From the NCBI RefSeq assembly GCF_900142515.1, contig NZ_FRBC01000017.1, positions 1 to 64,000 of the forward strand: a DNA stretch of 64,000 nucleotides, read 5' to 3'. The translations under genes and the position numbers were made by a program. Position 1 is the stretch's first letter; every line of letters begins with the position of its first letter. Below are positions 29,074 through 46,652 of this stretch, in pieces. The notes below the pieces were generated by a model. The model was not told where the DNA came from and ran no database searches. It saw only the letters and a list, made by a program, of their open reading frames with translations. This DNA comes from Pseudoselenomonas ruminantium (GTDB lineage Bacteria; Bacillota; Negativicutes; Selenomonadales; Selenomonadaceae).

Positions 29074-30201
29074 TCAGACACATATTTTAGCTATTTCCCT
29101 AGCAACAATCAAGGCATCACCTATTGTATTGTCAGCAGAAAAACTTATCCTAACAGTTCCCACTGCATATTCCATCGGAATATGCAATGCTTTTATAACG
29201 CTTGATAATTCCATATCACGTGAATTACAAGCCGATCCCGTCGCAATGGCTATTCCCAGTAAATCAAGACGATTTACAATCATCTCTCCATTAGCATTCT
29301 TTATTGACAAGCTGATTGTTCCTTCAACATTTGATTCAGCCTTATTAACTATGCAATCAATATTCGCTTCTCGTACAGCATATAGAAAAGCTTGTCTTAC
29401 TTTTGCAATATGCTCCCTATCGCTTTGCATGTTCTTGCAACTGAGTTCCAATGCTTTCGCCATACCTACAATGCCAGCAATATTTTCTGTTCCTGCTCGC
29501 ATGCCATTTTCTTGACCGCCGCCATAAATCAATGGTGCTATCTTTATACCATTGCGCACATACAAAAATCCCATTCCCTTAGGCCCATGAAACTTGTGCG
29601 CAGAAGCAGATAGCATATCAACATGCAGATCATTAACATCAATAGGAATATGCCCCATAGCCTGTACTGCATCTGTGTGAAAACATGCATTTACCTTATG
29701 CGCCTGCACTGCCATTTCTTTTATTGGCTGCACAGAACCAATTTCATTGTTCACTAGCATAATTGAGACAATCGATGGTAAATTCAGTTCATGCAATGAT
29801 GCTTCGTATGCCTGATGATTAACAATGCCAGTATGGCTAACTGGTAATCTTATAACTGTGCAACCTCTACTTTCCAAGAATGTACAAGTATTTAATATAG
29901 CATGATGTTCAATCTGGCTCGTGATGATGCTGACCGGATTCTTATGTGCTGCAACAAAACCTTTCAATGCCCAATTATCAGCCTCACTCCCGCAAGAAGT
30001 AAAGTAAATCTCTTCCGGCAATGCACCGATTTTTGATGCAATTGTTTCTCGTGCATTCTTGATTTGACGGCGGATTTTGGTTGCCTGTCGATAAAGTGCT
30101 GATGGATTGTAAAAGTCATCGACAAAATATGTACGCATTATTTCAGCAACTTCCGGATACATCGCTGTTGTCGCTGCATTATCCGCATAAATATTATATT
30201 T
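29074..30201 (-). CDS. Cysteine desulfurase (NifS/IscS/DndA-type) of the BREX operon
   Basis: 375 residues from a GTG at 30201 (MKYNIYADNAATTAMYPEV) with GGGG 5 bases upstream; the in-frame extension to 30231 would overlap the previous gene. PLP lysine in 'SASAHKFHGPKGMGFLYV', 'HTDAVQAMGHIPI', 'GSEADNWALKG', 'NNEIGSVQPIKE', and the catalytic cysteine loop 'IATGSACNSRDMELSSV'. Releases sulfur from cysteine as a protein persulfide. Last gene of the BREX-like operon, AT-rich like its neighbours; likely sulfur donor for BrxP, as DndA/IscS is for DndC (inference). Confidence 0.9.
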   Translation of the reverse strand, partial: KYNIYADNAATTAMYPEVAEIMRTYFVDDFYNPSALYRQATKIRRQIKNARETIASKIGALPEEIYFTSCGSEADNWALKGFVAAHKNPVSIITSQIEHHAILNTCTFLESRGCTVIRLPVSHTGIVNHQAYEASLHELNLPSIVSIMLVNNEIGSVQPIKEMAVQAHKVNACFHTDAVQAMGHIPIDVNDLHVDMLSASAHKFHGPKGMGFLYVRNGIKIAPLIYGGGQENGMRAGTENIAGIVGMAKALELSCKNMQSDREHIAKVRQAFLYAVREANIDCIVNKAESNVEGTISLSIKNANGEMIVNRLDLLGIAIATGSACNSRDMELSSVIKALHIPMEYAVGTVRISFSADNTIGDALIVAREIAKICV

Positions 30202-30223
30202 CACAAAATCCCCTACCCTAAAT

Positions 30224-30421
30224 TTAGTCAAACAAGGTGCAACCTTGTTCTTTAAATTCTTCTATCTTATCCTGCAAATCTTCTACTGATACCTCTAAAT
30301 AATCCGCCAAACAATCCATACAGTAATATTCCGTTACAGATTCACCTAATAGCTTTTTATTGACACCAATCTCATCCTTAGATAGACTTTCTTTACCACA
30401 GCCAATGCAAACAATATTCAT
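30224..30421 (-). CDS. Small zinc-ribbon-like protein in the BREX operon
   Basis: 65 residues from ATG 30421 (a GTG at 30430, overlapping the brxL stop, is the alternative). Two cysteine pairs, CIGCGK near residue 5 and CMDC near 34, are spaced as a zinc ribbon, followed by an acidic helix 'EVSVEDLQDKIEEFKEQGC'. No family recognised. Sits tightly between brxL and the desulfurase; may be a partner or scaffold of either. Confidence 0.75.
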   Translation of the reverse strand: MNIVCIGCGKESLSKDEIGVNKKLLGESVTEYYCMDCLADYLEVSVEDLQDKIEEFKEQGCTLFD

Positions 30422-30426
30422 AATAT

Positions 30427-31887
30427 TCACAACTCATTCACCGTTATATCTGGTATAGATTTACCTCTAAACTCATCATCTAATAAACCCAATTGATATT
30501 TTATTATTTCACGCATATATCTCGCTGGATCTAGACAATATTTCTTAAAGTCACGAGCCGATATATCCTCTGCCTCTCTTACATGCGGGAATAACAGTTT
30601 CAAAAAACCTGTTGCAATCCTCTTTATAGCCTCTGTATCTCTAGTATCTGCCTTTTCCGGTACATTGGTTCTAGCATCCACAATCATGCGATAGCTCGAA
30701 TCGTCGCGCAATGCATGCATAATCGAAGAAAAATATTCAGAATTCAAACTCCATCCTTCAATTTTCAGGTCATCGTTCATACGTGGCAAATCCCAACCTT
30801 TTAGGAAACCATGGAATCGATCTATCAAAGCACTCTCATGAAACACTTCTGGTAATTCCTGAAAAACATTCTCTCTTACATCAGCTTTCATCAAATCTGA
30901 CGAAATATTCCCCAACAATACAATACCTGCATCCGCTGCACCTTCATGATTACCAACAGTATACTTACCGTTTTCCATGTAACCTTTCAATGCACCACGC
31001 ATTTCATCAACATCAGAAAAATGTATCGTTTGTACTTCATCAAGTGCAACATAATCATGCCCAAAAACCAAACCTTCTGAGCGTCGGGCAATATCATAGA
31101 ACATACGTGCCCTTGACATGGTTCCACCTGAAGATAACCATCCATACCGACTTACGGAACCAAACAAATATGATTTACCAGTTCCCTTAGGTGCTAATTC
31201 AATTAGATTTAAACGTTTCTCGACAAACGGAAGCAATCTTGTTATCATTGACAATTTCTGCTTTTCATCCCGATAGCCGGCAGCATTATAATCCATTGCT
31301 CCTAAGATAATGTCAATCCACTCTTCTAGCGAAAATGCAGCACGAGCATCCTTAAACTCGTCTAGATCTACAACGTACGGACAGAAATCTTTAAAGCTAG
31401 TCAATTTAATCTTTCCTGGTTCTTGTTTGCTGATTGGTGGCTGATAGCCAAGCTCTACAATCCCCCAGTTTTCCTCTGACTTTAACAATGCCTCACTACA
31501 TTCAGACCATACATTTGCAGGAATAGTAGTATCTTTATAACGCAAATTAAAATCAGGCAACGAAAAAGATATCTGTTGAGTCTTTATATCAATATCAACA
31601 GAGATTTTTGCCAAGAATTTTACTCGTTCATTCTCATGAATAACTCTATTCTTTATTGACTTCCAGTCTTCTGCCTTCGGAATGAATTTACGAATAAATT
31701 CTACTACATCTTCTACTTCAATATCTCCATTGTCATCCTGGAATCTTTTCAAAACCCAATCACGCATAAAAGAAGGAAGTTTAAATGATGAAATGAAACT
31801 ATTCTTTTTTAAGTCTTTATACACAACCATTTCATCGAAATAATCTTTTAGTTTTTCTGCAAACTCATCTGACGTATAATCAACCAC
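30427..31887 (-). CDS. brxL: BrxL-like AAA+ protein, short form without Lon protease domain
   Basis: 486 residues from a GTG at 31887 with GGAGGG 7 bases upstream. N-terminal BrxL domain ('LKDYFDEMVVYKDLKK'), AAA+ with Walker A 'LAPKGTGKSYLF' (231-242), 'SRYGWLSSGGTMSRARMFYDIARRSEGLVFGHDYVALDEV' (Walker B), 'GNISSDL', arginine region 'ALIDRFHGFLKGW', and lid 'AIKRIATGFLKLLFPH'. Classical BrxL (about 650-700 residues) continues into a Lon-like protease with Ser/Lys; that part is absent here. BrxL forms DNA-bound rings in BREX defence. Stop overlaps or abuts the zinc-ribbon gene. Confidence 0.88.
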   Translation of the reverse strand: MVDYTSDEFAEKLKDYFDEMVVYKDLKKNSFISSFKLPSFMRDWVLKRFQDDNGDIEVEDVVEFIRKFIPKAEDWKSIKNRVIHENERVKFLAKISVDIDIKTQQISFSLPDFNLRYKDTTIPANVWSECSEALLKSEENWGIVELGYQPPISKQEPGKIKLTSFKDFCPYVVDLDEFKDARAAFSLEEWIDIILGAMDYNAAGYRDEKQKLSMITRLLPFVEKRLNLIELAPKGTGKSYLFGSVSRYGWLSSGGTMSRARMFYDIARRSEGLVFGHDYVALDEVQTIHFSDVDEMRGALKGYMENGKYTVGNHEGAADAGIVLLGNISSDLMKADVRENVFQELPEVFHESALIDRFHGFLKGWDLPRMNDDLKIEGWSLNSEYFSSIMHALRDDSSYRMIVDARTNVPEKADTRDTEAIKRIATGFLKLLFPHVREAEDISARDFKKYCLDPARYMREIIKYQLGLLDDEFRGKSIPDITVNEL

Positions 31888-31900
31888 CTAAACACCCTCC

Positions 31901-34216
31901 TCAAAATCCAAGATCTACTTCATGAGTTTTCTTTTTAATCTCAAATTCCAATTCTATACCAGTAGCCTTATTATCTTCATATATCTCAGCTGTATATCTA
32001 TTTTTACGTTTTATATCATCCAAATCGAATTCAGCATGTTTATTATCCACAGTCAATCTACCCACATAGAATTTATTTTTTATACGTAACTGCGGCTTAT
32101 GCATGGGCATATTGCAGAAAAGAATGATTTTTGTCTTCTCATTATGTTTATGTTCAATAACATCATTTTCAAACACATAAGTCAATCTATTAGGTTTAGT
32201 TGTTATAGCAATTATTGGAACTAACACCTCCTCCAGTGAAGCGCCACCATGGACTTCCACTTCAGCTTTATGGCCACCCTTAAAACGTTCATAATTAGCC
32301 AAAACGGCATATCCATTTTCGTAAGTTGCAAAAGGTATTTGTGGATCACTATCCGCTGGACAACATCTACCACTATGTCTGCCTTTTTCTTCTAATTCAA
32401 TCGTAGCATTCTCTGTTTCGTTTATAACAGCCAATCTGCTGGCGCCATGATCTGAAAAAACCACTGCACGTTTGATAACTCCTTGAGATAACTTTACTCG
32501 AATATCCTTAAGCACTTCATCTATAACAGCCAATTCATCTAATAAGTGAATCGGTTGTTTTACTTTTTCATAATCATAATAGTTTACACCATGCTTTATT
32601 TCATCTAAATCTTTAGTAACTCTACATGTATTTTGAAAGAAATCATCAAAATCTTTATTCAAGCTAGTTATAGATGGTAAATCACAATGTGCAACACGTA
32701 TTTCGGCAATCAAACCGTACTCTTTACACTTATTTTTTATATAAGAAAGATACTCCACCCCTAGCGCATCAACAAAATAAGGCATTGCATCACGACATTG
32801 AAGATTTTTCAACGTCGCCAATCTCGTTAATATACGATTATAAGGACGTTTTTCTGCGATATCATTCACTTCTAGCAAAAAATCATCTGTTATCTTATTT
32901 GATATTTTCTGTTTCTTATATTCAGAGAAATAATCCGTCAACATTCCTGCTAATCCAGCATCATCTATTTGGATAATCCCTTCATTGAATACATATGTAT
33001 CCATATAAAGATTAACTTGTGGAAGATTCGTCTCCAAAATATAGTTAAATTCTTTACGGCTATACTCATAATAGCTAAGCCATTTCATAGAACAAATTTG
33101 CTCATCATGGGTACGATTTGTCAAATAGAAAATAGCTTTGCGCCCTTTTTGCCCAACCTCATTGCAAAATTGTGATGACAATTTTGGATTGTCTTTTATC
33201 TTTTCTAGAAGTTTTTTTCGTTCCTCATAGTATTGTCTAAAATTGCTATCATCCACATCTATACTTAGTATCGAAAAATATAACGATCTCTCTAAATCCA
33301 ACTGATTCTTTATATCACTTGCAGCTATGTTAAGATAGGAATTATCTGTTCCCATAACTTTAATTGCCAACCAATAAAGCCACAAAGTATACTCATCATT
33401 AGATTGTAATACGTCACCTATACAAATCTCTAAATCTAAAACCTTAAATTCTTCTGCAACAATTTTCCCAAAATTATTTTCTTCTAACTTACACTTCAAC
33501 CATTGCCATTGAAGCTCAGTTCCATTTTCTTCCACAACACAGCTACTAAAAGCAGGAAATTTTTTGCAAATAATATCAAAGCTACCAGGACCTTGATTCA
33601 CACTATATACGGCTCGTCGAAACAATGCAGCCGAATATGTAGTTACCATAGACATCGTTAAACTATCTTTGATGGATTCATTTGTCATCTGTTCCAATGC
33701 TGACAATAATTCCCCAACGCCATCATAAAGCTTACCTTTTGCGTAATTTGCATTACGTTCAATAATGATTTGTGGTAAAGGATTGCAACTGTTTCCTAAA
33801 AATATAATTCTTCGCTTTAATCGAATATCTTGTTTGCATTTTTGGTGCAGATAATCACGGCAATGCATCAACAATATAACAGTATGTTCACGACATGTTT
33901 CATTTACTGCTCTATCCAAATATTCCTCTAAAAAAATCTGACTATGCAACATGCAAGCTTGGGATAAACCCACTAAAACATGAACGCCATCTGAAAACGC
34001 ATTATTATACGCACGTTCAACATCTGGTATAGAACCATCCTTACAATAATTTGAAACATAAATAAACTTCTTTGCAACATCAATGCGAAGTCTAGATATC
34101 AACTCATGGAATAAATCATAATCCTCTGTATCAACAATCAAAGGGAACCCCGTTGACACATTGTTACAATATGATGCGACTTCATTTATGCATTCAGCTA
34201 CATCCAGACTTCGCAT
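31901..34216 (-). CDS. pglZ: PglZ-domain protein (BREX core)
   Basis: 771 residues, ATG with AGGAG 8 bases upstream. The C-terminal half holds the alkaline-phosphatase-like PglZ domain: metal site 'AMPYFVDALGVEYL' near 490, 'RAVVFSDHGASRLAVI', and 'HGGASLEEVLVPIIAI' near 680. The N-terminal 450 residues are family-specific and helical. PglZ is the one protein shared by all BREX systems; members have nuclease/phosphodiesterase activity in some types. Third core gene of the type 4 order brxP-brxC-pglZ-brxL. Confidence 0.92.
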   Translation of the reverse strand: MRSLDVAECINEVASYCNNVSTGFPLIVDTEDYDLFHELISRLRIDVAKKFIYVSNYCKDGSIPDVERAYNNAFSDGVHVLVGLSQACMLHSQIFLEEYLDRAVNETCREHTVILLMHCRDYLHQKCKQDIRLKRRIIFLGNSCNPLPQIIIERNANYAKGKLYDGVGELLSALEQMTNESIKDSLTMSMVTTYSAALFRRAVYSVNQGPGSFDIICKKFPAFSSCVVEENGTELQWQWLKCKLEENNFGKIVAEEFKVLDLEICIGDVLQSNDEYTLWLYWLAIKVMGTDNSYLNIAASDIKNQLDLERSLYFSILSIDVDDSNFRQYYEERKKLLEKIKDNPKLSSQFCNEVGQKGRKAIFYLTNRTHDEQICSMKWLSYYEYSRKEFNYILETNLPQVNLYMDTYVFNEGIIQIDDAGLAGMLTDYFSEYKKQKISNKITDDFLLEVNDIAEKRPYNRILTRLATLKNLQCRDAMPYFVDALGVEYLSYIKNKCKEYGLIAEIRVAHCDLPSITSLNKDFDDFFQNTCRVTKDLDEIKHGVNYYDYEKVKQPIHLLDELAVIDEVLKDIRVKLSQGVIKRAVVFSDHGASRLAVINETENATIELEEKGRHSGRCCPADSDPQIPFATYENGYAVLANYERFKGGHKAEVEVHGGASLEEVLVPIIAITTKPNRLTYVFENDVIEHKHNEKTKIILFCNMPMHKPQLRIKNKFYVGRLTVDNKHAEFDLDDIKRKNRYTAEIYEDNKATGIELEFEIKKKTHEVDLGF

Positions 34217-34230
34217 TACATCATCTCCTA

Positions 34231-34260
34231 ATTATTTTTCCTTATTTTTCCTTATTTTTC
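34231..34260. repeat. Ten-base tandem repeat at the brxC-pglZ junction
   Basis: A unit reading GGAAAAATAA on the minus strand is present about three times. It contains the brxC stop codon (TAA) and lies just before the pglZ ribosome site. A change in copy number would alter the brxC tail or the spacing to pglZ. Confidence 0.8.
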
Positions 34261-37200
34261 AATATTTCAATACCAACATTTAGATTATCCGTTATAAGCT
34301 CACGCAGATAATAGCGCAAATCATTAAGTTCCAATTCATCAACAACTTTTAAAGCTTCCATAAAACCTTCGTCTCTGTATATATCACCTGCATGATTTTC
34401 CAGTAAATGTTTTACACTTTTATCTTCGAACCAATTATAAGGTGAAGTCTTAGCGTTAGATTTTAGATATGCACGAATGTCATTTACGTTACCTAAAATA
34501 ACAGCATAATCCTCCACAACACCATCCAGGAAACACTTATCTCGTTCCTGTTCACTTGCTAAACGTTCAAAAATATTACTACTTGCATCATCTGTTAAGA
34601 AATCAATTGTACGCTTAACATCTTCATCCTTAGGCGAATCATTATTAAGGATATTTAAATATGGCCTTATTCTTTGACGATCTTCATCGTTAAACATGCA
34701 TAGAATCGGCGTTTGATATTTATTTGACCATTCTCTAGGATTCTTAGTGCCAGTTTTTTCCTCCCAAAGTTTACGCATCTTCATTTTAGCTTGAGATGCT
34801 AAATATTCCTTAATTTTTCCTTCTACATAGCTATAGTATTCTGCTTTTGAATATGTAAACAAACCATCTACTAACAGTGCATAAATCTGTTTGGCATCTT
34901 CATCAGATAGTTTCTGCAAAGGAACCTTGGCAATCTCTTTAAAGTACTCAAACTGCTTATCATAAACCTCATCAAACAATTTACGAGATGTTGTTAAGGT
35001 TTCATAAAAATCATCTTTATCCTGCTCTAATAAAGTCCCAGTCTTTTTCATCTTATAGAGCATCTCAATAAACGGTTTCAATTCGCCTCTCATCTCAACA
35101 ATTGCCTCAGATGAAATATGCATCTTATGCGTACGGGCATTCCATTGAGTAACCGTTTCTCCCAGTTTGGAACTTTGTGGAAGGCTAAGATTGCTTTCAC
35201 GTATAATATTGTATTCAATGATTACACGGTCAATTTTTTCTTTTGCTGTATTAACATCCCACACCCAAGTGGCAGCATCTGCATTGAATCTTTTTCTTAC
35301 CTTTTCGATATATCTGCCATCGTCTCCTACTTCATTCGCTAGGTTAGTTAGTTCTCCATCTCGATATTGCGCTATAAACGCCAACATGCCATTTTGGCAC
35401 GCATCTGGGCTAATTACAGAAGCTAAGTCATCAGCCAAAACACTATAATCTAAGAATTTTCTTCCCAAATCATTGGCAATTGCGCTCTCATCTACTCCGC
35501 CCATATTGCCATTATTAGCCAAGCCACAATACAAGTCTATCGCTTTTTCAATTTCCGCACGCTCAGTAACCAGTTTTTCCTGCTTATCCAAAACATACTT
35601 TACGCACCACAAGGGGAAAGGTAGTTTACGTAATTCAAGACGTACACGATCTCTTGCTTGTTCTATAGAACCACAGCACTCCGGATCGATTCCAAAGATT
35701 TTTGCCGTTGCTTTTAAGAATGCACTTTGTTCAGCACTCATAGCAACCAAGAACTCTTCCTTATATTTCTTATTTTCAATTACAGACTGATTGATGCCAT
35801 TGGCAATCATGTTTTTCATTTTGTCCGCCGTCATAGGAGTACTGGTAGATCCATTACTCCAAAAATAATCGCCTTGTGTATATTCCTTCAACAGGAAGCC
35901 AAGAACAAATGCCGTTATATTACACGGCATATAACCAAACTTAGGCTTACGCATTTCGTCGAACATATAAAGGATACTGATTCTTCCATCTTCCTTAAAT
36001 TTTTTCTCAATCATATCCTCTATTGCTAATTTTGCTTTCACTAACGGAAGAGTTTGCTTCATTGGATCTTCCCAATATTTGTCAACATGCCAAGCGCCAT
36101 TAACAACATTTTCCAAGCTAAATCTCTTATTGTTAGAATTAAATGTACCCTTCAATTCTTGATTTATACCGCATTCGGCGCCCATTGCTAACGGTCCTTT
36201 GGTAAACATGTTGTCAACAACTTCGTTTTGTTCCAGCGCATAAGGATACACACGCAAGTTCATCGACTTCAGTTCTTCTATTAGTGCATTCTTATTAGCA
36301 CAACGGAAACCGCTAATATTATCTTTATTGTATAAAGTAAAGGAACCATTCTCTACACAGGATTTCCATTCATCCAGCTTATCGGCTGCCTGCTTAGTAT
36401 ATCCTTGAGCTTGTTTTGCATCTTTCTTTAAATAATACTTCGCATATGCGGATGAAGTAACATAATCATTAAAATTTTCTTCCCCCATAATATTGGCAGA
36501 TGCATCGACAAATGTAATATCACGACACTCGTCCTTCTTCATATTCTGTTCAATTAAATCACGAATACGAGTTGCTTCCGACTCACTTTTAGCAAAAGTC
36601 AATATCACAGGGAATGTGTACGCCCAATCTTTCCTAATTATACTATTTAATGTATTAGTAAAATCATCAACAGTTGCCGTAAACACTTCCAATCGCATCT
36701 CTAATGATTTCGGTATCTTTAGGGCCGTTGTTAATGTTGCATCAAGCACTAAGTTTTTAGTTTTCTTTTCCTTGCGTATATCTTCTTGAAGCTTTTCTAT
36801 TTCATTGTTATCATTCTGACTAAGTGCAACAACATATTCTACACGATTCCCCGCCGGCCGCTTGAATAACACCTGTTTTTTCTCAAGTGCATCAGCAATA
36901 TAATGACCTTTATATTCCGGCCATCCAGACACCCCTGAAAATGCCAAATCAATATTTTGATCATTAGGTTTAAGTAATTCGACATTACCTACTCGCTGGG
37001 ATATAGCTTGTAAAAGTAAAATTACCTTAAACACGCGCTTTTCATCATCGTTAAATCGTTCATTATCTACAATATTATAAGAACCCAATATTGTTCGAAC
37101 AGTATCCGTTAATCCACTTCTACCCTGAACACAGAAAAATTCCCATAACATATCTACAGTAAGCAAGTTATGATTTGAAAGCGGGCCGACATTATCAATG

Positions 37201-38474
37201 AACCACTTAAAACTCTTTGCATCCATATCATTGCTAAGGATAAAGTCAAACATACTTCTCTGGTTCGAAGCAAATACTACAGATATGTGTTTTAATAACA
37301 GTGCAGCATAAGGATGAATAGGAACAATTTTACACAAATCTTCATCCTTCAGAAATGTTTTACTCCCCATACTATGCTTTTTAGCATCATCAACAATGAC
37401 TTGCCGTACAGAAATCAATTGATCATTCAAATCATTGGCATAGTCCTGCCATTCTTCTTCCATAATGGGATCATTATTTTTTTTCATGGCTTGCGCCATC
37501 AAACGAAAAGCCATATTTTCTGGCAATTCAATTTTAATCGGCGGCACAAAACGTCCCAGTATTTTCTTTGCATCCTCAGAACTTGCAAATAAAGATGTTG
37601 ATTCATGAGAAACAATCATAAAGAAGAAGTTAGAATCTTGACTAACCTGTACTAATGTTTGGAATCCCGTCAATGCATTACGGTTATTATGGAAATACTC
37701 CGTGAATTCATCCCAAATAAAGAGTATCGCACTTAAATGATTTTCTCGAATAATAGTACGAATCCATTCAGCCATATCCTCAGCTGACAGACGCATAGCC
37801 ATAATATCATTATCTCGTGCTACCTCTAAGAGATTGCGCATAAGCTCCATTACTTTACTTGGATTATTCTCTTTCAAGTCTGCTATAATATGATCGATGT
37901 TTTTATCCGGAAATTTCCATGCATATTTTTCATCACTTATAAGGCTAGCAAAATATGTTTTATTTGCTTCTTTTGCTTCCAGCCAATTCAAAGCTGCCAT
38001 ACGCAAAGATGACTCACCATGATTTTTTATATTATGTTTTTCTAATGCAGCAAGTATACTTTCCTGTATAGAAATAATAAGGTCATTATCCGAATGAATC
38101 GATGATGATCCAACGCGATGTATGGTAATCATATTGCCATTATTTTTATCGGCAATAATTTTATCACACAACTCTTTTTTTAGGCCATATTCATTAAAAT
38201 ATGCTTCCACTTCATCATCAGATGCTTCCAGCAGAGATTTTACCGTCAATGCTGCATGTGATTTACCAGTACCATAAGCACCTTCTACCCAAAGGGATAG
38301 ATTTTGCTTCCCCGATAAAACTGTATGTGTTTTTTCCAATAAATTTACAAAACTTTCATGCGGATAATACTGTTTCCATGATACTTTTCCTTCTTGGATA
38401 AGCTTTGCGGTTATTGCCGGATAAAATTTTTCATCTATAGAAAAATAATTTTTATATGTTGTATTCTCTCCCAT
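34242..38474 (-). CDS. brxC: BrxC/PglY-type large ATPase
   Basis: 1410 residues, typical BrxC size (about 1200-1400). N-terminal P-loop 'WVEGAYGTGKSHAAL' (62-76), Walker B-like 'AILFIWDEFTEYF' near 250, and 'SHESTSLF' as sensor. The long remainder is helical, with coiled coil near 560-600 ('NEIEKLQEDIRKEKK'). BrxC is an ATPase required in BREX, thought to act with PglZ on DNA. ATG with AAGGGG about 11 bases upstream. AT-rich; 18 bases after brxP. Confidence 0.92.
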   Translation of the reverse strand: MGENTTYKNYFSIDEKFYPAITAKLIQEGKVSWKQYYPHESFVNLLEKTHTVLSGKQNLSLWVEGAYGTGKSHAALTVKSLLEASDDEVEAYFNEYGLKKELCDKIIADKNNGNMITIHRVGSSSIHSDNDLIISIQESILAALEKHNIKNHGESSLRMAALNWLEAKEANKTYFASLISDEKYAWKFPDKNIDHIIADLKENNPSKVMELMRNLLEVARDNDIMAMRLSAEDMAEWIRTIIRENHLSAILFIWDEFTEYFHNNRNALTGFQTLVQVSQDSNFFFMIVSHESTSLFASSEDAKKILGRFVPPIKIELPENMAFRLMAQAMKKNNDPIMEEEWQDYANDLNDQLISVRQVIVDDAKKHSMGSKTFLKDEDLCKIVPIHPYAALLLKHISVVFASNQRSMFDFILSNDMDAKSFKWFIDNVGPLSNHNLLTVDMLWEFFCVQGRSGLTDTVRTILGSYNIVDNERFNDDEKRVFKVILLLQAISQRVGNVELLKPNDQNIDLAFSGVSGWPEYKGHYIADALEKKQVLFKRPAGNRVEYVVALSQNDNNEIEKLQEDIRKEKKTKNLVLDATLTTALKIPKSLEMRLEVFTATVDDFTNTLNSIIRKDWAYTFPVILTFAKSESEATRIRDLIEQNMKKDECRDITFVDASANIMGEENFNDYVTSSAYAKYYLKKDAKQAQGYTKQAADKLDEWKSCVENGSFTLYNKDNISGFRCANKNALIEELKSMNLRVYPYALEQNEVVDNMFTKGPLAMGAECGINQELKGTFNSNNKRFSLENVVNGAWHVDKYWEDPMKQTLPLVKAKLAIEDMIEKKFKEDGRISILYMFDEMRKPKFGYMPCNITAFVLGFLLKEYTQGDYFWSNGSTSTPMTADKMKNMIANGINQSVIENKKYKEEFLVAMSAEQSAFLKATAKIFGIDPECCGSIEQARDRVRLELRKLPFPLWCVKYVLDKQEKLVTERAEIEKAIDLYCGLANNGNMGGVDESAIANDLGRKFLDYSVLADDLASVISPDACQNGMLAFIAQYRDGELTNLANEVGDDGRYIEKVRKRFNADAATWVWDVNTAKEKIDRVIIEYNIIRESNLSLPQSSKLGETVTQWNARTHKMHISSEAIVEMRGELKPFIEMLYKMKKTGTLLEQDKDDFYETLTTSRKLFDEVYDKQFEYFKEIAKVPLQKLSDEDAKQIYALLVDGLFTYSKAEYYSYVEGKIKEYLASQAKMKMRKLWEEKTGTKNPREWSNKYQTPILCMFNDEDRQRIRPYLNILNNDSPKDEDVKRTIDFLTDDASSNIFERLASEQERDKCFLDGVVEDYAVILGNVNDIRAYLKSNAKTSPYNWFEDKSVKHLLENHAGDIYRDEGFMEALKVVDELELNDLRYYLRELITDNLNVGIEILKNKEK

Positions 38475-38492: not shown

Positions 38493-40910
38493 TTATAACA
38501 GTTCCAATACATCTTGAGATTTATGCTCGCTTCGCAAAGTAATTTGATCCAAATTCAATGTAAACGTAGCTGAAATAAATGCTGGATAATTAGCACTAAG
38601 TCCGTTCAATATAGGAACCATCGTCTCACGATCAAGTCCAAATATTCTTGTAGGACTGATACCTTCACGCTCGATACTATCATCTAACAGCGTTTCCAAT
38701 GAGAATTGATACATACCATCACATGCTTCAGCAAATTTATACAAAGAGTACAATATAACTATGTCATTGGGGTTAGGCCATGACGTTCTAGCAAAGGATT
38801 TTAATTTTATCATCTCGTTGCCAGAAGCAGTAATTCTTACATCTGCATCTACCATCCCTAATACTTGCGATGTCCCCAATGGTGTTTTGACAAACATTAT
38901 TTTCAAAGCATCTGCAACATTTCGTCTCCCCAAACCTTTTGTATCATTTTCCATATCTACTGCTAGCATATCTTTTATTTCATCGGGTGTATATGCACGA
39001 TTTAGATCTAATCTTTCAATTACCCATCTAAAAGTTGGTGTATATACTATATTAGCTAAAATCAGCCCCCATAAAATATTTGCATCATTTTTCACACGTA
39101 TAATTTTCTCTGTAAATTCCGTCGGAATATTTCTTGTATATTTATCTCCATCTATATTCCTCTTGTATTCCACCATCTCAGCATCTCTTAAGAAATGAAC
39201 AAATGCATCCTTCTTCTTATTTTGAATAATTCCATCACCATCAGATAACCAAAAATCCTTACCACCTTCATAATTCAAAAATGTATCTACCCATTCTTCT
39301 CGAGTCCCAAAAGTAAAGTACCTATCCAATCCACTCATACTCTTTCCCTCCACGTTTTTGTTCTTTACTGAACTATACAACATGCAATGGTCTCTTATAT
39401 CATGACACTTAAAGCAATGTACGCATAACTCACTTATCTTAACACTACCGCTCATATCAATACAGTGCAATTTACATTCAGCTTCGCATATACCGCATCG
39501 CCTACAATAGATACTTTTTATTATTACACTTCTAAATAAAGACTTAAACTTTATAAAATCTTTTGTATTATCCTTCATAGGCAATTTAAACAAGGTAGTT
39601 TTAGGCAGCTGATTAACCATCACTGCGAATTCATTACTTTTAAACGACACTTTATATTGATCAGACGATATTTTATTTATAGCTCCGAGTGTTTTTGCCC
39701 ATTCCATCCAATTCAACTCTGGTAGATATGCTTTTATTAATAATGAACCGTTATCATCCTGTATTTCGAATTTATCTTTACCTACCTTTAATTCTCGCCC
39801 ACTTTTTCTAGTTCTCCAATATCCATTATCTATAAATTGCCGCATTTCGTTAGCATCATATTTTTTCCCACTCGTTTCTCTTATTATTTCTAGGAATTTA
39901 TCTACTTCATCTTTATATACCATTCGCTTAATATACTCATGTTTTCCCGTAGAATTAGGACATACCAAACATCCTGCACGTGAGCTTCCTTTTTTATATG
40001 CATTATTCAGTGGAAGAGAATTTGCATATATGTATAAGTATACTTCTATTGAGTTCCAATCCAAAATTGTATGACAACTGTACTGACCTTGATGTTTCTT
40101 TCCTTCACTTAAATCATCATACATACTTCGCTTCAAACTCTCTTCAGCACGGACGCCTGTAAAAGCCATACCTGTAAAAGAATCTTTTTTTATTATTTTC
40201 CTTATTAAATTTATTTGTGGAGATGTTTTATGAACACTACAGCACCATCTAATTGCAGTTGATGGTGGTCCAAAGCACCGCCAACTCTCGTCAGGAGATA
40301 ATGTAGATTTTGCCCTGTAAAATCTAACACCTTTACGTTCGTATTCTCTTTCCATATAATTTACTAGAGTATATGTATCTGAGAACTCCATTTGAGTATC
40401 ACCAAATAAAATAAAAAAGCTATCACTGGGTAATGCTTTGGCAACTATATCTGCAGCAACTATACTATCTTTTCCTCCACTAAAAGCGACATAAAAGACG
40501 TCTACTTTCCTCTTATACTTTTTATAGTAATTAAAAACTTTCTTAATAGTTTCCTGTGTTAGATTTTCTAACAAACCTGCATTTTTACTAAGCATTGCAG
40601 GAACATCAACTAACTCCAGTTTACGCTGTACTTGATCAGATTTATTTAGCACTATCAATTCTGGTTGTGTAAATAGCGATCCACCTTGTGTTTTTGCAAT
40701 CTTTTCGCCCTTATAATAATAATTGTTATTTTCCGCCCACATTATTGGATATGTTTCATCTCTAGGATAATCAAAAAACTTATCAAAACCAAGTAAATCT
40801 AATTCCCTATAATAAACAGGTCTTGCCTCCATACTCATTTTTTCTTGCTCTGGGAGTAATACAACGCCACCAGTTTCTTTATCCCACACATATTTATACA
40901 ATTCATTCAC
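38493..40910 (-). CDS. brxP: BrxP: PAPS-reductase/DndC-like protein with ferredoxin-type clusters
   Basis: 805 residues from a GTG at 40910 that overlaps the upstream gene by 8 bases. Residues 144-149 SGGKDS are the ATP-pyrophosphatase loop of PAPS reductases and of DndC. Further cysteines (C212, CC at 223-224, C279, C314-x2-C317) could hold a cluster as in DndC. Residues 469-509 contain two ferredoxin-like sets, C469/C472/C475/C479 with C483 and C496/C499/C502 with C509. The C-terminal 270 residues are uncharacterised. BrxP defines BREX type 4, which has no PglX methylase. Likely activates DNA for sulfur insertion (inference from DndC). Confidence 0.9.
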   Translation of the reverse strand: MNELYKYVWDKETGGVVLLPEQEKMSMEARPVYYRELDLLGFDKFFDYPRDETYPIMWAENNNYYYKGEKIAKTQGGSLFTQPELIVLNKSDQVQRKLELVDVPAMLSKNAGLLENLTQETIKKVFNYYKKYKRKVDVFYVAFSGGKDSIVAADIVAKALPSDSFFILFGDTQMEFSDTYTLVNYMEREYERKGVRFYRAKSTLSPDESWRCFGPPSTAIRWCCSVHKTSPQINLIRKIIKKDSFTGMAFTGVRAEESLKRSMYDDLSEGKKHQGQYSCHTILDWNSIEVYLYIYANSLPLNNAYKKGSSRAGCLVCPNSTGKHEYIKRMVYKDEVDKFLEIIRETSGKKYDANEMRQFIDNGYWRTRKSGRELKVGKDKFEIQDDNGSLLIKAYLPELNWMEWAKTLGAINKISSDQYKVSFKSNEFAVMVNQLPKTTLFKLPMKDNTKDFIKFKSLFRSVIIKSIYCRRCGICEAECKLHCIDMSGSVKISELCVHCFKCHDIRDHCMLYSSVKNKNVEGKSMSGLDRYFTFGTREEWVDTFLNYEGGKDFWLSDGDGIIQNKKKDAFVHFLRDAEMVEYKRNIDGDKYTRNIPTEFTEKIIRVKNDANILWGLILANIVYTPTFRWVIERLDLNRAYTPDEIKDMLAVDMENDTKGLGRRNVADALKIMFVKTPLGTSQVLGMVDADVRITASGNEMIKLKSFARTSWPNPNDIVILYSLYKFAEACDGMYQFSLETLLDDSIEREGISPTRIFGLDRETMVPILNGLSANYPAFISATFTLNLDQITLRSEHKSQDVLELL

Positions 40911-43632
40911 CCTTGAGTTCTTTACGTTTTATTTTTGCTTTTTCGAGGATAACATCTATCCCTTTATATGCAGCTCTTGTTATATAACCGTCTTCTTTAA
41001 GCTCTTTCAATGCTTCATCTGTTGTTTCACATTCTTTATGAAGCAGTACATCAAAAATTAAATCATCATATTCAATACTTCCTGCATCATGACGCACCAT
41101 AACACCATTAAAATCATTTTCTGAAAACGAACTATTCATCAGCTGAAATTTTTCGCTGAAGCTATATATATAACTCTCTAACAAATATCCAGTCCATCGA
41201 TAGTTTTCAACGCTAGGAAAGTTACTAATCACTGAGCTTATCAATTTTAGCGACATATACTTTCCAGTACATATATTTTCTTCTATGAACGAATCTATCT
41301 TCTTAGCATCAAATGTAATCATTGAGTCCTTGACAAATGTATCTCCATCTATTCTTACCATGCTATCATGTATTATATCATGACGAATTGGTGTATCAAT
41401 TTCCTTGGAAAACTCTTTTAATTCATCCATTGTAAATGTGTCACGTTCGGCACAAAACTCACGATACATTTTTGCTGTATCCACATAGATTTCTTTTGGT
41501 GTAATGAATTTTGCCGTAAAATTAAAATCATCTTTTAGTAAATATCCCAATGCTTTTTGAAAACAGCCATTAGAAAACTTTTCTGTATTAATTTCTACAG
41601 ATTTGCATTCGATATTAATTCTTCTTCTACATTCATCCGCTTGCAGTTGACGAGCTGGTGCATCTGCTATAGCCTCACCTATAACTCTTCTAATTTCTTT
41701 TAACTCCTCATTTGTTACAGGAAAGGTTTCTATTGCCATATAGGTGTTAGATGCTGTGTTTATAATAGATGATGTTGTTCTAACCACCTGTTTGATTTTT
41801 TCCAAAGGGATAAACCATAGTTCTTTTTCTAATTCATCATAAGTGATTTCACGTTGTACATCACGTATATAATCACGTATATTCTCATCTATCTCTACTG
41901 TACAGCCATCTTTCGTAATATGGCCAAAACCATTCACACTATACCCGTGCATGCCCCGGCGTAGTACAGGCCAAAATACATCTTCACTGTAGATGTTCAT
42001 CTGCTGTTCTATCTCATGTTTATAGTGCGGAAATACACAACTCAAATATATACACGAAAAGCCATTTTCGTATATATCATCAAAATCCTCCAATATTTTC
42101 TTCAATAACTCTTTTTGTTTTTGATTATTTTTTAACTTTCTTCTACCATTATCTTCATAAGTAATCTTCTTAATATTCTCTTCAAACACGAGTTTTTCAA
42201 TTTTTCTTCCATATTCTTGTTCAAAGAGATTCGCAAATCTATTAAAATCCAGTCTACTATTTAACTTTATCCCATTAGGGTATTCTCTTTCCATTATTTC
42301 TTGATATGGATTGTTCTCATCAACATCCACATCAAAATTATCATTATCTGTTTTTTCTGTTATTTCTTCCGTCTCATATATATTATAATCATCCTTAACA
42401 AGCTCTTTATGTTCCTCTATATTCTTTTCTGGATTAATAATTGTTTCAACTTCACTATTTTCGTTTTTCACATACCATGAAATATAAAAATCATTCGTTA
42501 GGTCATCATCATTTTTATACCCCAGTCTCTTATTAGCTTCTGTTAGTAAAATTTGAAACTCTGCATTTCGGAATCTATACATCCTTACAATGTTTTTATC
42601 TAATTGAGTTCCACCTTTTCTGCCTCTCCGTCCATCTGTTAATAGATAATCTATTTCTAAGGCATGACGATTAATCGCGCCTTTTCCGCGCGATGTATCC
42701 ATTACATAATCATGCAACTGCACATATTTTCGTAAATGCTCGTAAAATTCTTGGATCACCTCTACAATTGAGCGTCCTTTTAAGTTCACACATTCATATA
42801 TCAACCGCGCTGTCTCATATTCATCCCATTTTCTTTCCATAGGTGTAAACGATAACTCCTTTTTTTCATTACTGGAAGATTTTTCTCTTTTATATTTTTG
42901 CCGCATTAAGAATAATTTTTTATCCTGTGAAGAATAGTCTTCACCTTCAACACCTTGTCCTGCTTCCAATAACTTAAACGCATACATTTTCATGGCCAAT
43001 TCTGAAATTGTAAAAAGTGATTCTGCTTCATCGCTATATTTTCCCATGTGATATTTTTTCAATACTGCACATTCTTGACGCATAATTTCATCCCATACAG
43101 ATGAATCTATATCTTTGATAGCATAATATACATCCAGTAAATGTGCAGTTTCAATCTCATCCCAGCCCTGCATATCCTTGATAATACTATCCATTCTCGT
43201 CTTCTCTTCTAAAACATCGCTTTTCCTCTCATCTTTATCGCTTGTTCCCATAGACTGAGCCACTGTAATATCATTTGCTACATCAACTTTTTCCTGCATC
43301 CCCACATGCGATTTGGCCTCTAATAGCACATATTGAAAAGCTTCTGGATCATTTCTGTACAGTTCGATAAATGATTCCATCCATCTCGCTCCACCACTCA
43401 ATCCTTGCTTCCCACCGGTGACAATGTAATCACAATCATAAAGCTGCATGGTAATTCCTGCTACATTGCGATACGTATCATTAATCTCCATACCGCGCAT
43501 CACTGCATAACGCCTATACAAGTCTGAGAGCTTCTCAATCTCTGCCATCCATTCAGTTTTTGGCCAATCTTTTATTTTCATATATGTATCGATTAGGATT
43601 ACTCTTTCGTATTTGTCAAAAGGTACGCGCAT
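40903..43632 (-). CDS. 909-residue protein with three internal repeats, first gene of the BREX operon
   Basis: ATG at 43632 with AAGGG 9 bases upstream. Three related modules are visible: about 4-112 ('PFDKYERVILIDTYMKIKD'), 152-245 ('GWDEIETAHLLDVYYAIKD') and 263-380 ('KWDEYETARLIYECVNLKG'). Each starts W/F-D-x-[YI]-E-x-[AV]-x-L; modules 1 and 3 end with 'LYR...EFQ.LL.EA'. An acidic linker (385-455) leads to a C-terminal half with several winged-helix-like segments ('REITYDELEKELWFIPLEKIKQVV', 'DTFTMDELKEFSKEI', 'ETTDEALKELKEDGYI'). No catalytic motif seen. Not recognised as a named BREX component. Probable DNA-binding or recognition subunit, translationally coupled to brxP. Confidence 0.85.
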   Translation of the reverse strand: MRVPFDKYERVILIDTYMKIKDWPKTEWMAEIEKLSDLYRRYAVMRGMEINDTYRNVAGITMQLYDCDYIVTGGKQGLSGGARWMESFIELYRNDPEAFQYVLLEAKSHVGMQEKVDVANDITVAQSMGTSDKDERKSDVLEEKTRMDSIIKDMQGWDEIETAHLLDVYYAIKDIDSSVWDEIMRQECAVLKKYHMGKYSDEAESLFTISELAMKMYAFKLLEAGQGVEGEDYSSQDKKLFLMRQKYKREKSSSNEKKELSFTPMERKWDEYETARLIYECVNLKGRSIVEVIQEFYEHLRKYVQLHDYVMDTSRGKGAINRHALEIDYLLTDGRRGRKGGTQLDKNIVRMYRFRNAEFQILLTEANKRLGYKNDDDLTNDFYISWYVKNENSEVETIINPEKNIEEHKELVKDDYNIYETEEITEKTDNDNFDVDVDENNPYQEIMEREYPNGIKLNSRLDFNRFANLFEQEYGRKIEKLVFEENIKKITYEDNGRRKLKNNQKQKELLKKILEDFDDIYENGFSCIYLSCVFPHYKHEIEQQMNIYSEDVFWPVLRRGMHGYSVNGFGHITKDGCTVEIDENIRDYIRDVQREITYDELEKELWFIPLEKIKQVVRTTSSIINTASNTYMAIETFPVTNEELKEIRRVIGEAIADAPARQLQADECRRRINIECKSVEINTEKFSNGCFQKALGYLLKDDFNFTAKFITPKEIYVDTAKMYREFCAERDTFTMDELKEFSKEIDTPIRHDIIHDSMVRIDGDTFVKDSMITFDAKKIDSFIEENICTGKYMSLKLISSVISNFPSVENYRWTGYLLESYIYSFSEKFQLMNSSFSENDFNGVMVRHDAGSIEYDDLIFDVLLHKECETTDEALKELKEDGYITRAAYKGIDVILEKAKIKRKELKGE

Positions 43633-43641
43633 AGCAATCAT

Positions 43642-43788
43642 CCCTTGCTGGCAAAAATTTTATACTTCTTTTTATTATACTACTAACTAACGGATATCGC
43701 TAGTTTTTATTCAAACTAAATTTGCTCGTTAGTTTCAACTTATAGTGTGAGATATTCTGTATAATAGTTATTAGAGGTGATAAACATT
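43642..43788. promoter_or_regulatory. Divergent promoters and candidate XRE operator
   Basis: Minus strand: TATAAT near 43676-43681 for the BREX operon with a poor -35. Plus strand: TATAAT near 43760-43765 for the XRE gene, also with a poor -35. Between them the words CTAACTAACG, CGCTAG, AAACTAA and CGTTAGTTT form imperfect inverted repeats (AAACTAA and TTAGTTT are 9 bases apart). Likely repressor site for the XRE protein controlling both directions (inference). Confidence 0.6.
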
Positions 43789-44157
43789 ATGTCCATCGGT
43801 GACAAAATCAAAGAACGGCGCAAGGAATTAGGGATGACACAGACGGAGCTGGGGCGGCGTGTTCATAAGTCTTCGCAGGTAATCTCCAATTGGGAGCGGG
43901 GCTACACCACCGGCATTGCCGCCGAAGACTTGCAGCATCTAGCCAATGCGTTATCCACCAGCATCTCATTCTTTGTTCCTAACACCTACACTACCACCTC
44001 CCCTGTGCTGGGAACAGACAATACTTCTTCCTACGACAAGGTTCAGGAACAAAAGAAGGACAGCCGCCTAGATTCCCTTATCGCAGAATATCCCCACTTG
44101 GATGAGAAGTCCAAGGACATCATCGATGCCATTGTGGCTCTGTCCAAAAAAGAATGA
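43789..44157 (+). CDS. XRE-family transcriptional regulator
   Basis: 122 residues from the ATG at 43789 (MSIGDKIKERRKELGMTQTELG), GAGGTG 9 bases before. Helix-turn-helix at about 5-58 ('MTQTELGRRVHKSSQVISNWERGYTTGIAAEDLQHLANAL'); short C-terminal part with 'LIAEYPHLDEKSKDIIDAIVAL', common in phage-type repressors. Divergent from the BREX operon, so probably its repressor. Codon use is more GC-rich than the BREX genes. Confidence 0.92.
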   Translation: MSIGDKIKERRKELGMTQTELGRRVHKSSQVISNWERGYTTGIAAEDLQHLANALSTSISFFVPNTYTTTSPVLGTDNTSSYDKVQEQKKDSRLDSLIAEYPHLDEKSKDIIDAIVALSKKE

Positions 44158-44216: not shown

Positions 44217-46652
44217 TTATTTTATTTTTCCCATATAGCGACGCCTGTAATAATCCATTGCCCGATAGTTCACAATATCCCGAAAATGGGCTGCGACTGC
44301 CTCATTCCTTAGATATGGTTTTAGATTTTCACAGACATGTATTGCCATGATTCCCCCTGTCTGGATAAAATCACTTTGCAAAAAACGTAAAGGCATCTTC
44401 CGAATCTTATCCAAATGCCATTTATCTGTAAGTTCCTGAAATTCCTGTTTGCTGTGCACATGGGGCAAATCCTGCCAGTTCCTGTCCTTGATAAAGAATT
44501 TTTTCCATGCTGCCAGTACATCCTCATAGGTCAGTTCTGCTTTCAGGCTGTTTTTCTCCTGCATAGCCAACAATACAGGCATTTTGTAAACTTTGGTCAT
44601 TTGCGTAGCAGCTATCTCCTGCAGAAAATCTTCTGCAATTGTCCCTACCAGCTCTTGTTCTGTTGGCGTTGCTTCCCCCAGCTCCACCAAATAGGCCAGA
44701 TAATGCTTGAACGGATTTTCCTTTGCATGTTTGAGGCATAATTCATAGACGCTTGCGGTCATATTTTCAAAAAGTTCCATACGGGACGGCCTCTTCCCTA
44801 GCAACGACTTGATCCGATAAAACTCATCCTTGATAACCTCCCGCAGACTCTGCCTGTTTTTATCCGCTTCGCGAAAGAGATCGATCAGCTGCAAGTCAAA
44901 ATCCACCCAGCAATTATCCGGATATTCATTTTCTGCTGGCTCGCCTTCCCCATAAACAGCCTGCCCTTCTCTGGAAAGCAGCCCTTTTACCATGCCGGCG
45001 TTGCGGTAATTGCCGATAAAGTCCAGCACCGTAAGGTGTGACTTTCCAGGATACAGACGCAAACCTCTCCCCAGCTGCTGCATAAACACAATGGGTGACT
45101 CCGTGGGACGCAAAAACATTACCATGTCCAAAGCAGGAATATCTATGCCTTCGTTAAACATATCCACCGCAAAGATCACCTTTAGATCACCGCGAATAAG
45201 CTGTTCCACCGCAGATTTCCTGTCATCTGTAAAAGCTCCCTGTGCATTGCTATATACCGCCACGGCTTGGATTCCCTGCTTGATAAAAAACTCTGCCATA
45301 GCTTCAGCATGTTCCCTGGTCGCACAAAATCCCAGAGCACGCTGGGATTTGTATTTCCGATAGTGGCTGACAATCTGCTTCATGCGTCGAATATTGTCTA
45401 AATAAAGGCAATTAAGGTCATGGGCTGCATAAGTCCCTGCCACCGGACGATATGGCCGATAGTCCGTATCGTCATAGATTCCATAGTAACGGAACGGCAC
45501 GAGCATTCCCCGATTGATTGCCGTGAACAGCGGCAGCTCATAGGCCACATTGTAATCGCATAATGCATATATATTACGCCCGTCCAAGCGTTCCGTAGTG
45601 GCAGTCAGCCCCAGCAAAAAACGCGGTCGGAAATAGGCCAAAATATTTCGGTATTTATTGCTGACCGCATGATGGAATTCATCCACCACAATGTAATCGA
45701 ACTGATCCATTGCAAAATAATCATCGTTCAAATATTTGACCTGACCTAAAGTTTCCACGGACGCAAAAATAACGGCCTTACCTGTCTGCTTCTGCTTGCC
45801 CGTAAAAAAGCCGTAATCCTCCAAATTTCGCACATTCCGAAAGGCTTCCGCCGCTTGGCGCAAAATTTCCTCCTGATGAGCGATAAACAGCACCGTGGCA
45901 AAGGATTGGGAATCAAAGGCTGCTAAATATGTCTTACCTATACCTGTAGCGGCATGGACGAGGGCCTTTTCGGCACCTTCCGCCCTGGTCTGTGACAGAT
46001 AATAGAGCGCTTCGATTTGCGCACCTCTCGGCCGAAAAGTATCCTGCCGCTCCTTTAACCAATCATCAAAGGAAATATTTCCCGGCTTTCGCCAATTCCT
46101 AGCATACTGCTGCAATACTTCATCATCTGCCAAAAGGGAATGATTTTGACAGATATCCTGAAACGTCTGGTAGAACGCCATATATTCCCGTTCATTTTCC
46201 CGGCTATCCAAGCAATAGTTCCATTCTACGGCCCCGCCCAGAGCACTGGCGGACAGATTTGACGAACCCACAAACAGATAACTATAGGTGTCAAAATGGA
46301 CAAAGTACGCTTTGGGATGAAAACTTCTGCCTGTATCCTGATAGAATTTCATGATTCCGGCATCCCCCAGATAGTAGCGGAACAGATACAGGGCCTGAGG
46401 TTCGGTGAGGTTGAAGTTCCTGCCTGTCAGCAAGGTGATCACTGCCCCACGCCGGACGGCAGCCATCAGCGCCGGCAAAAGCAAGCGCACACCGGATTCC
46501 CTGACATAGGCCACCATGATGTCAATACGCTTGGCCTTAGCCATGAACCGCTCCAAGGCTGGCAATAATTCCCGGCCATACTCTCCCGTAAATACAGGAA
46601 AACATTCCCCTTCAGCAGTTATGGCATTCTTTGACACAGTATGTTCAACCAT
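44217..46652 (-). CDS. PLD-nuclease/SF2 helicase fusion, probable defence protein
   Basis: 811 residues. N-terminal phospholipase-D-type nuclease domain with a single HKD-like motif 'FHPKAYFVHFDTYSYLFVGSSNLSASAL' (about 110-137), so probably dimeric. Then an SF2 helicase: 'RPRGAQIEALYYL', Walker A 'ATGIGKT', DEFH box 'IVVDEFHHAVS', 'GLTATTERLDG', motif V/VI 'FAVDMFNEGIDIP' and 'QQLGRGLRLYPGK'. The C-terminal 230 residues are DUF3427-like. Such fusions resemble restriction-type defence proteins. The start at 46652 overlaps the methyltransferase gene by 34 bases; no strong ribosome site, so coupling is likely. Confidence 0.88.
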   Translation of the reverse strand: MVEHTVSKNAITAEGECFPVFTGEYGRELLPALERFMAKAKRIDIMVAYVRESGVRLLLPALMAAVRRGAVITLLTGRNFNLTEPQALYLFRYYLGDAGIMKFYQDTGRSFHPKAYFVHFDTYSYLFVGSSNLSASALGGAVEWNYCLDSRENEREYMAFYQTFQDICQNHSLLADDEVLQQYARNWRKPGNISFDDWLKERQDTFRPRGAQIEALYYLSQTRAEGAEKALVHAATGIGKTYLAAFDSQSFATVLFIAHQEEILRQAAEAFRNVRNLEDYGFFTGKQKQTGKAVIFASVETLGQVKYLNDDYFAMDQFDYIVVDEFHHAVSNKYRNILAYFRPRFLLGLTATTERLDGRNIYALCDYNVAYELPLFTAINRGMLVPFRYYGIYDDTDYRPYRPVAGTYAAHDLNCLYLDNIRRMKQIVSHYRKYKSQRALGFCATREHAEAMAEFFIKQGIQAVAVYSNAQGAFTDDRKSAVEQLIRGDLKVIFAVDMFNEGIDIPALDMVMFLRPTESPIVFMQQLGRGLRLYPGKSHLTVLDFIGNYRNAGMVKGLLSREGQAVYGEGEPAENEYPDNCWVDFDLQLIDLFREADKNRQSLREVIKDEFYRIKSLLGKRPSRMELFENMTASVYELCLKHAKENPFKHYLAYLVELGEATPTEQELVGTIAEDFLQEIAATQMTKVYKMPVLLAMQEKNSLKAELTYEDVLAAWKKFFIKDRNWQDLPHVHSKQEFQELTDKWHLDKIRKMPLRFLQSDFIQTGGIMAIHVCENLKPYLRNEAVAAHFRDIVNYRAMDYYRRRYMGKIK

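Follow-up and report, generated by a model that had tools for sequence, protein, structure and literature searches.

Several described components of BREX and phosphorothioation systems resemble in part the gene studied here, which we call orf909. Proteins of the DUF4007/BrxA/SspB/DndG type, as described in gkag035 and gkad1213, carry several HTH or winged-helix domains within one BREX or phosphorothioation subunit, as orf909 does; three such domains are found in that type, whereas the core of orf909 has about five winged helices and is preceded by exchangeable N-terminal modules. BREX type 4 already possesses a DUF4007, within BrxP, and the orf909 core is without profile similarity to it (hhalign P 0.8%). 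DndF, a component of a phosphorothioation system, also joins a conserved core to exchangeable N-terminal domains (gkad1213), but its core is a P-loop kinase with enzymatic add-ons, whereas orf909 has a core of winged helices and showed no enzyme domain. In the main text of gkag035, the newest BREX survey, no gene of the orf909 type appears among the type 4 parts, although the supplements or PMC12914056 may mention one. BREX-4 itself is known, but a recurring subunit with the orf909 core and a mosaic front end is, as far as the literature and the libraries consulted show, undescribed.

The window, that is, the whole stretch of 64,000 nucleotides that was analyzed, comes from a Selenomonas relative. 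The gene orf909 (40903..43632) is the first of an operon on the minus strand and is followed by brxP, encoding a PAPS reductase fused to DUF4007 (38493..40910; PADLOC E=2.5e-228), brxC (34242..38474; PADLOC BrxC E=6.7e-226), a BREX-4 type pglZ (31901..34216; NF033445 (BREX_PglZ_4) E=5e-149), brxL (30427..31887; PADLOC BrxL E=4.8e-221) and a DndA/SspA-like cysteine desulfurase (29074..30231). The components by which BREX type 4 is recognized, namely BrxP with both its domains, BrxC, the BREX-4 PglZ and BrxL, are thus all encoded in the operon of orf909, and the gene set corresponds to the make-up of this phosphorothioate-linked subtype as given in the main text of gkag035. A divergent gene on the plus strand (43777..44157) encodes a Cro/C1-type HTH protein (Pfam HTH_3 E=8e-13), a candidate regulator of the BREX operon; a 126-aa gene at locus L013 occupies the same place in the same orientation, a likeness of size and position. 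Two genes upstream of orf909 lies a PLD-nuclease/ResIII helicase (44217-46652, minus strand), relatives of which also adjoin orf909-like genes at L067:13417-16608 and, in a Pbe-like locus, at L079:3738-5945.

The initial annotation had placed an uncharacterized 909-residue reading frame at the head of the BREX operon, ahead of brxP, and this gene is real. The opposite, plus strand is full of stops, and the ATG at 43632 has an AAGGG 9 nt upstream; a second in-frame ATG at 43641 (912 aa) has poorer ribosome-binding spacing. The 8-base overlap with brxP that had also been claimed holds only if brxP starts at the GTG at 40910 and becomes a 1-nt gap if it starts at the TTG at 40901. The TTG, with AAGGG upstream, is the likelier start because the homologues begin M/L-Y-x-Y; the two genes are tightly packed whichever start is used. 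No match to orf909 was found in Pfam, PADLOC or NCBIfam, and the Pfam and NCBIfam searches detected no sigma or other regulator domain in it, although some of its relatives do carry them. A single-sequence search of genome contigs returned no close relatives. Of the full-length homologues the closest comes from S. ruminantium S137; it shows 63% identity along the entire protein and lies on a 16,176-base contig within the same operon.

The C-terminal half of the protein (40918..42312, minus strand) is a conserved core, modeled by AlphaFold from 43 homologues with a mean pLDDT of 92.4 as about five tandem winged helices and a possible partial sixth at its start, the count being our own reading of the predicted secondary structure. 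The last of these (41092..41307, minus strand) is the most conserved and bears the signature P..W[NTS].[FY]LLESY, in which P, W and LLESY are near-invariant. None of the 43 core sequences matched any Pfam family, and PADLOC and NCBIfam gave only stray weak matches, including a single core that matched BrxA at only 0.0085. The best PDB matches found by Foldseek (UFL1, SelB and Dcc1) are tandem winged-helix proteins of a generic kind, all of them with low TM-scores; the relative orientation is consequently not comparable, and no function follows from them. BrxA was not among the PDB matches listed for the core, an absence that proves nothing, and PDB profile searches with the core or with the N-terminal module described below gave chance matches only. 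The predicted winged helices would allow DNA binding, and DNA reading by orf909 is plausible; the acidity of the core (mean pI 5.5) weighs neither strongly for this nor against it.

To find relatives, genome contigs were scanned with a short core motif alone, W[NTS][LGK][FY]LLESY, a procedure blind to BREX; the core alignment used for the search had seven sequences. This yielded 49 loci from many bacterial phyla and one archaeon (Methanoregula). At 43 of these loci the core is followed immediately, on the same strand, by brxP sequence; L101 is counted on separate evidence, and at L128 a second copy and three small genes lie in between. The core and brxP occur together in Bacillota, Desulfobacterota, Synergistota, Spirochaetota, Bacteroidota, Chloroflexota, Planctomycetes, Thermotogae and Methanoregula. 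The other six loci comprise two that end at a contig edge, three with only partial cores and one (L126) with no BREX gene nearby; homologues of orf909 thus adjoin BREX genes, as had been expected, rather than occurring mostly away from them. At L128:9452-14063 (the same locus as L014), in a member of the Selenomonadaceae, two tandem genes of the orf909 type (824 and 685 aa) precede brxP; their cores are about 50% identical and one ends in DUF4357. When viral contigs were searched independently with the N-terminal module of orf909, BREX-4 loci were reached in four of five cases.

The association was also examined in reverse, in a 398-genome phylum sample containing 15 genomes with a strong BrxP match. 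The core was found directly before brxP in seven of the 15, although at L064 a gene joining the N-terminal module to an HNH nuclease intervenes, and two more (L072 and L075) have a protein that carries a front-end module B or D (below) and whose core is a distant match (hhalign P 86%, against 0.3% for a reversed control). At some BREX-4 loci the position of orf909 holds no recognizable homologue or is filled by a sigma-70 factor. The gene directly before brxP at L068:10627-12108 (minus strand) encodes a full sigma-70 with regions 1.1, 1.2, 2, 3 and 4, and a complete one also appears to occupy this position at L077, a locus with a broken brxP. By eye, L077:8978-10423 (plus strand) and a fragment at L074:10390-11031 (minus strand) look like relatives. 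In two MAGs (L087:7502-10194 and L103:2212-4932) brxP is fused, at about its residue 300, into the middle of brxC, a junction that reflects either a deletion within the operon or misassembly.

The N-terminal part of orf909 had been described as three versions of one module, and this was examined with a profile built from other proteins only, orf909 itself being left out. Copy 1 of this module A (residues 3-110; 43303..43626) scored 93 bits (5e-31; hhalign P 99.8) and copy 3 (residues 268-370; 42523..42831) 29.9 bits (2e-11; hhalign P 97.9%). Copy 2 (residues 157-251; 42880..43164), on the minus strand like the others, scored only 3.8 bits, with only the start of the repeat matched, and an hhalign P of about 31-34%; it became recognizable once its own relatives had been added to the profile. 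Control segments of orf909 gave near-zero profile scores and hhalign P values below 0.5%. AlphaFold, run on residues 1-400, predicted helices at 7-20, 25-45, 57-71, 83-94 and 96-110 in copy 1 (pLDDT about 92, good confidence), at 159-172, 177-199, 209-223 and 235-253 in copy 2, and at 271-282, 289-306, 313-331, 343-353 and 357-369 in copy 3; the two later repeats rest on a two-sequence alignment and are of lower, moderate confidence. The three segments are therefore predicted to share a similar topology rather than to have different folds. Copies 1 and 3 stand as repeats, and copy 2, from its helix order and the match at its start, we read as a diverged one. The wider description of orf909 as an uncharacterized, BREX-linked protein built of repeats and, in its second half, of several winged helices is likewise borne out, the winged helices by the predicted structure.

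Copies 1 and 2 are acidic and copy 3 is basic, while module A is on average acidic or neutral. No convincing structural relatives of module A were detected (Z about 5 or less); Foldseek with the N-terminal half of orf909 gave no match below E 0.3. A search of a viral structure library produced no match below 1e-3. The Myb-type DNA-binding proteins Sap1 and Reb1 were considered and rejected, as their weak VIA matches, at Z about 4, are within noise. Module A also precedes an HNH nuclease in two proteins, L064_6162 and L136_1072 (RN..G signature and profile match), the nuclease being identified by PF01844 in L136 and read from its Cys/His pattern in L064. In contrast, the HNH catalytic motif has no match in orf909, and the N-terminal module alone is common to it and these proteins. 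A 246-aa protein with two copies of module A stands alone beside mutS/mutL-type genes at L015:9685-10425; its genome carries BREX-4 elsewhere, and the BREX-4 locus of L018 adjoins similar mutS/mutL-type genes, identified by eye.

Four recurrent N-terminal modules, A to D, were defined among the relatives. They form the arrays A, AAA (orf909), AB, AD, ABB, ABD, B, BC, BBC, BCD, C, CD, D, DD, DDD and none, always N-terminal to one and the same core; proteins consisting of the core only also exist. Further front ends contain sigma70 region 4, the alpha-CTD of RNA polymerase, DUF7662 or DUF7225. A HARE-HTH and a SAM-like integrase domain were seen as well, and one C-terminus carries DUF4357. HARE-HTH, sigma70 region 4, alpha-CTD and the SAM-like integrase domain are DNA- or modification-associated domains. 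Comparison of loci shows N-terminal arrays exchanged, extended, cut back or missing in operons that otherwise stay the same. Between L080 and L089, for instance, identity is 88% in BrxP, 84% in BrxC, 86% in PglZ, 82% in BrxL and 77% in the core, and there is no detectable similarity between their front ends of 259 and 191 residues. With 77-88% identity elsewhere in these loci and unrelated front ends, the swapping must be recent. A 1156-aa protein with sigma70 region 4 (L079:6532-10002) contains the orf909 core in several incomplete copies (best domain 2e-11) and no module A. It is encoded in a Pbe/Dnd-like rather than a BREX locus, adjoined by PbeA, PbeC and a PLD-helicase resembling the one that lies upstream of orf909, so that the link to phosphorothioate-type defense persists outside BREX.

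One explanation for these features is that orf909 is a transcription factor which, by binding to promoters or to RNA polymerase, would control expression of the BREX operon or of phage genes. Its position at the head of the operon, the sigma70 region 4 and alpha-CTD modules of some relatives, and the full sigma-70 factors that take its place 27-28 nt before brxP at L068 and L077 are all compatible with such a role. However, a separate HTH gene stands divergently just upstream, matched in size and orientation at L013; orf909 is a large protein with an acidic core, and its gene is closely coupled to brxP; and one would not expect a regulator to retain a single core before brxP in bacteria and an archaeon alike. 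We consider this explanation, the main rival of the reading preferred below, unlikely but possible.

A second explanation, proposed in the initial annotation, is that the tandem modules read a DNA target and so set the specificity of the system, in modification or in attack. The exchange of modules resembles the swapping of target-recognition domains, and several of the module types are known from other proteins as DNA-binding domains. BrxP, however, has a swapped region of its own. In close loci its central block (about residues 300-660), which takes in the stretch following the PAPS-reductase domain as well as much of DUF4007, falls into distinct alleles of 40-50% identity between flanks of 85-95%, a pattern seen in L066, in L080-L092 and in others. 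DUF4007 is described in the text of gkag035 as a DNA-binding unit. By partial Mantel correlation the BrxP block and the orf909 modules were found to be uncoupled (partial r -0.06, permutation p 0.84, 34 loci), and all subunits were also scanned in this way in 80-residue bins (47 in total). Opposite patterns of sharing were also seen in single pairs: L090 and L092 have a common front end (75%) but not a common BrxP block (41%), whereas L080 and L089 have a common BrxP block (85%) but not a common front end. Nor did the modules co-vary convincingly with any other BREX subunit when all 47 bins were allowed for; bin 241-320 of the core reached p 0.004 and a few bins elsewhere about p 0.05, values unremarkable among so many. 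The BrxC proteins of L080-L089 show an allele-like divergence of their own in the N-terminal part, at about residues 100-300, with 40-50% identity in some pairs and 80-97% in others.

For the marking of DNA, target specificity set by the repeats is thus unsupported, as BrxP has its own, uncoupled swapped block and the modules are dispensable in the core-only forms; taken in its broader sense, to include attack, we regard this explanation as improbable. From these alignments, the central block of BrxP is more likely than the orf909 modules to choose the phosphorothioate site. That the modules are merely decoys or guards against phage inhibitors, with no role in defense itself, would suit their fast turnover, their optional nature and their lack of co-variation with any other subunit, but is highly improbable given that several module types are recognizable as nucleic-acid-binding domains and that the conserved core is retained even without them.

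The reading that we prefer, with a probability of roughly 45%, is that orf909 is a constant, as yet unnamed subunit of a major BREX-4 clade, serving as an adaptor or sensor with exchangeable inputs. It is suggested by the conservation and position of the gene, the predicted fold of the core, the swapping of the modules and their independence from BrxP. The core would dock on the BREX-4 machinery, that is, on BrxP, BrxC or the DNA held by them, alone or in combination, and the N-terminal modules, in orf909 the three copies of module A, would recognize changing features of the invader. Such recognition would then recruit or license the BREX-4 response, while the site of the phosphorothioate mark would more probably be set by the swapped block of BrxP. 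The inputs would be optional, since core-only proteins exist. This counts against the reading, as do the acidic or neutral average character of the core and of module A, the failure to find a convincing structural relative for module A, and the BREX-4 loci whose orf909 position shows no recognizable homologue or is taken by a sigma-70 factor. As the front end is not coupled to the BrxP block, it would constitute a second, independently changeable part, more likely facing outside the complex. A further and more tentative step, which we hold to be possible but doubtful, is that these two parts divide the work, the BrxP block setting the site of self-marking and the orf909 array setting the trigger of attack.

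To the question of how BREX recognizes phages and what restricts them, orf909 adds a large, recurring subunit for which the present family libraries have no model. The natural module swaps can be used directly as experiments, and in the BrxP block there is a concrete candidate for what determines phosphorothioate sites. If the two-part division of work is true, self-marking and the sensing of invaders would evolve independently within one operon.
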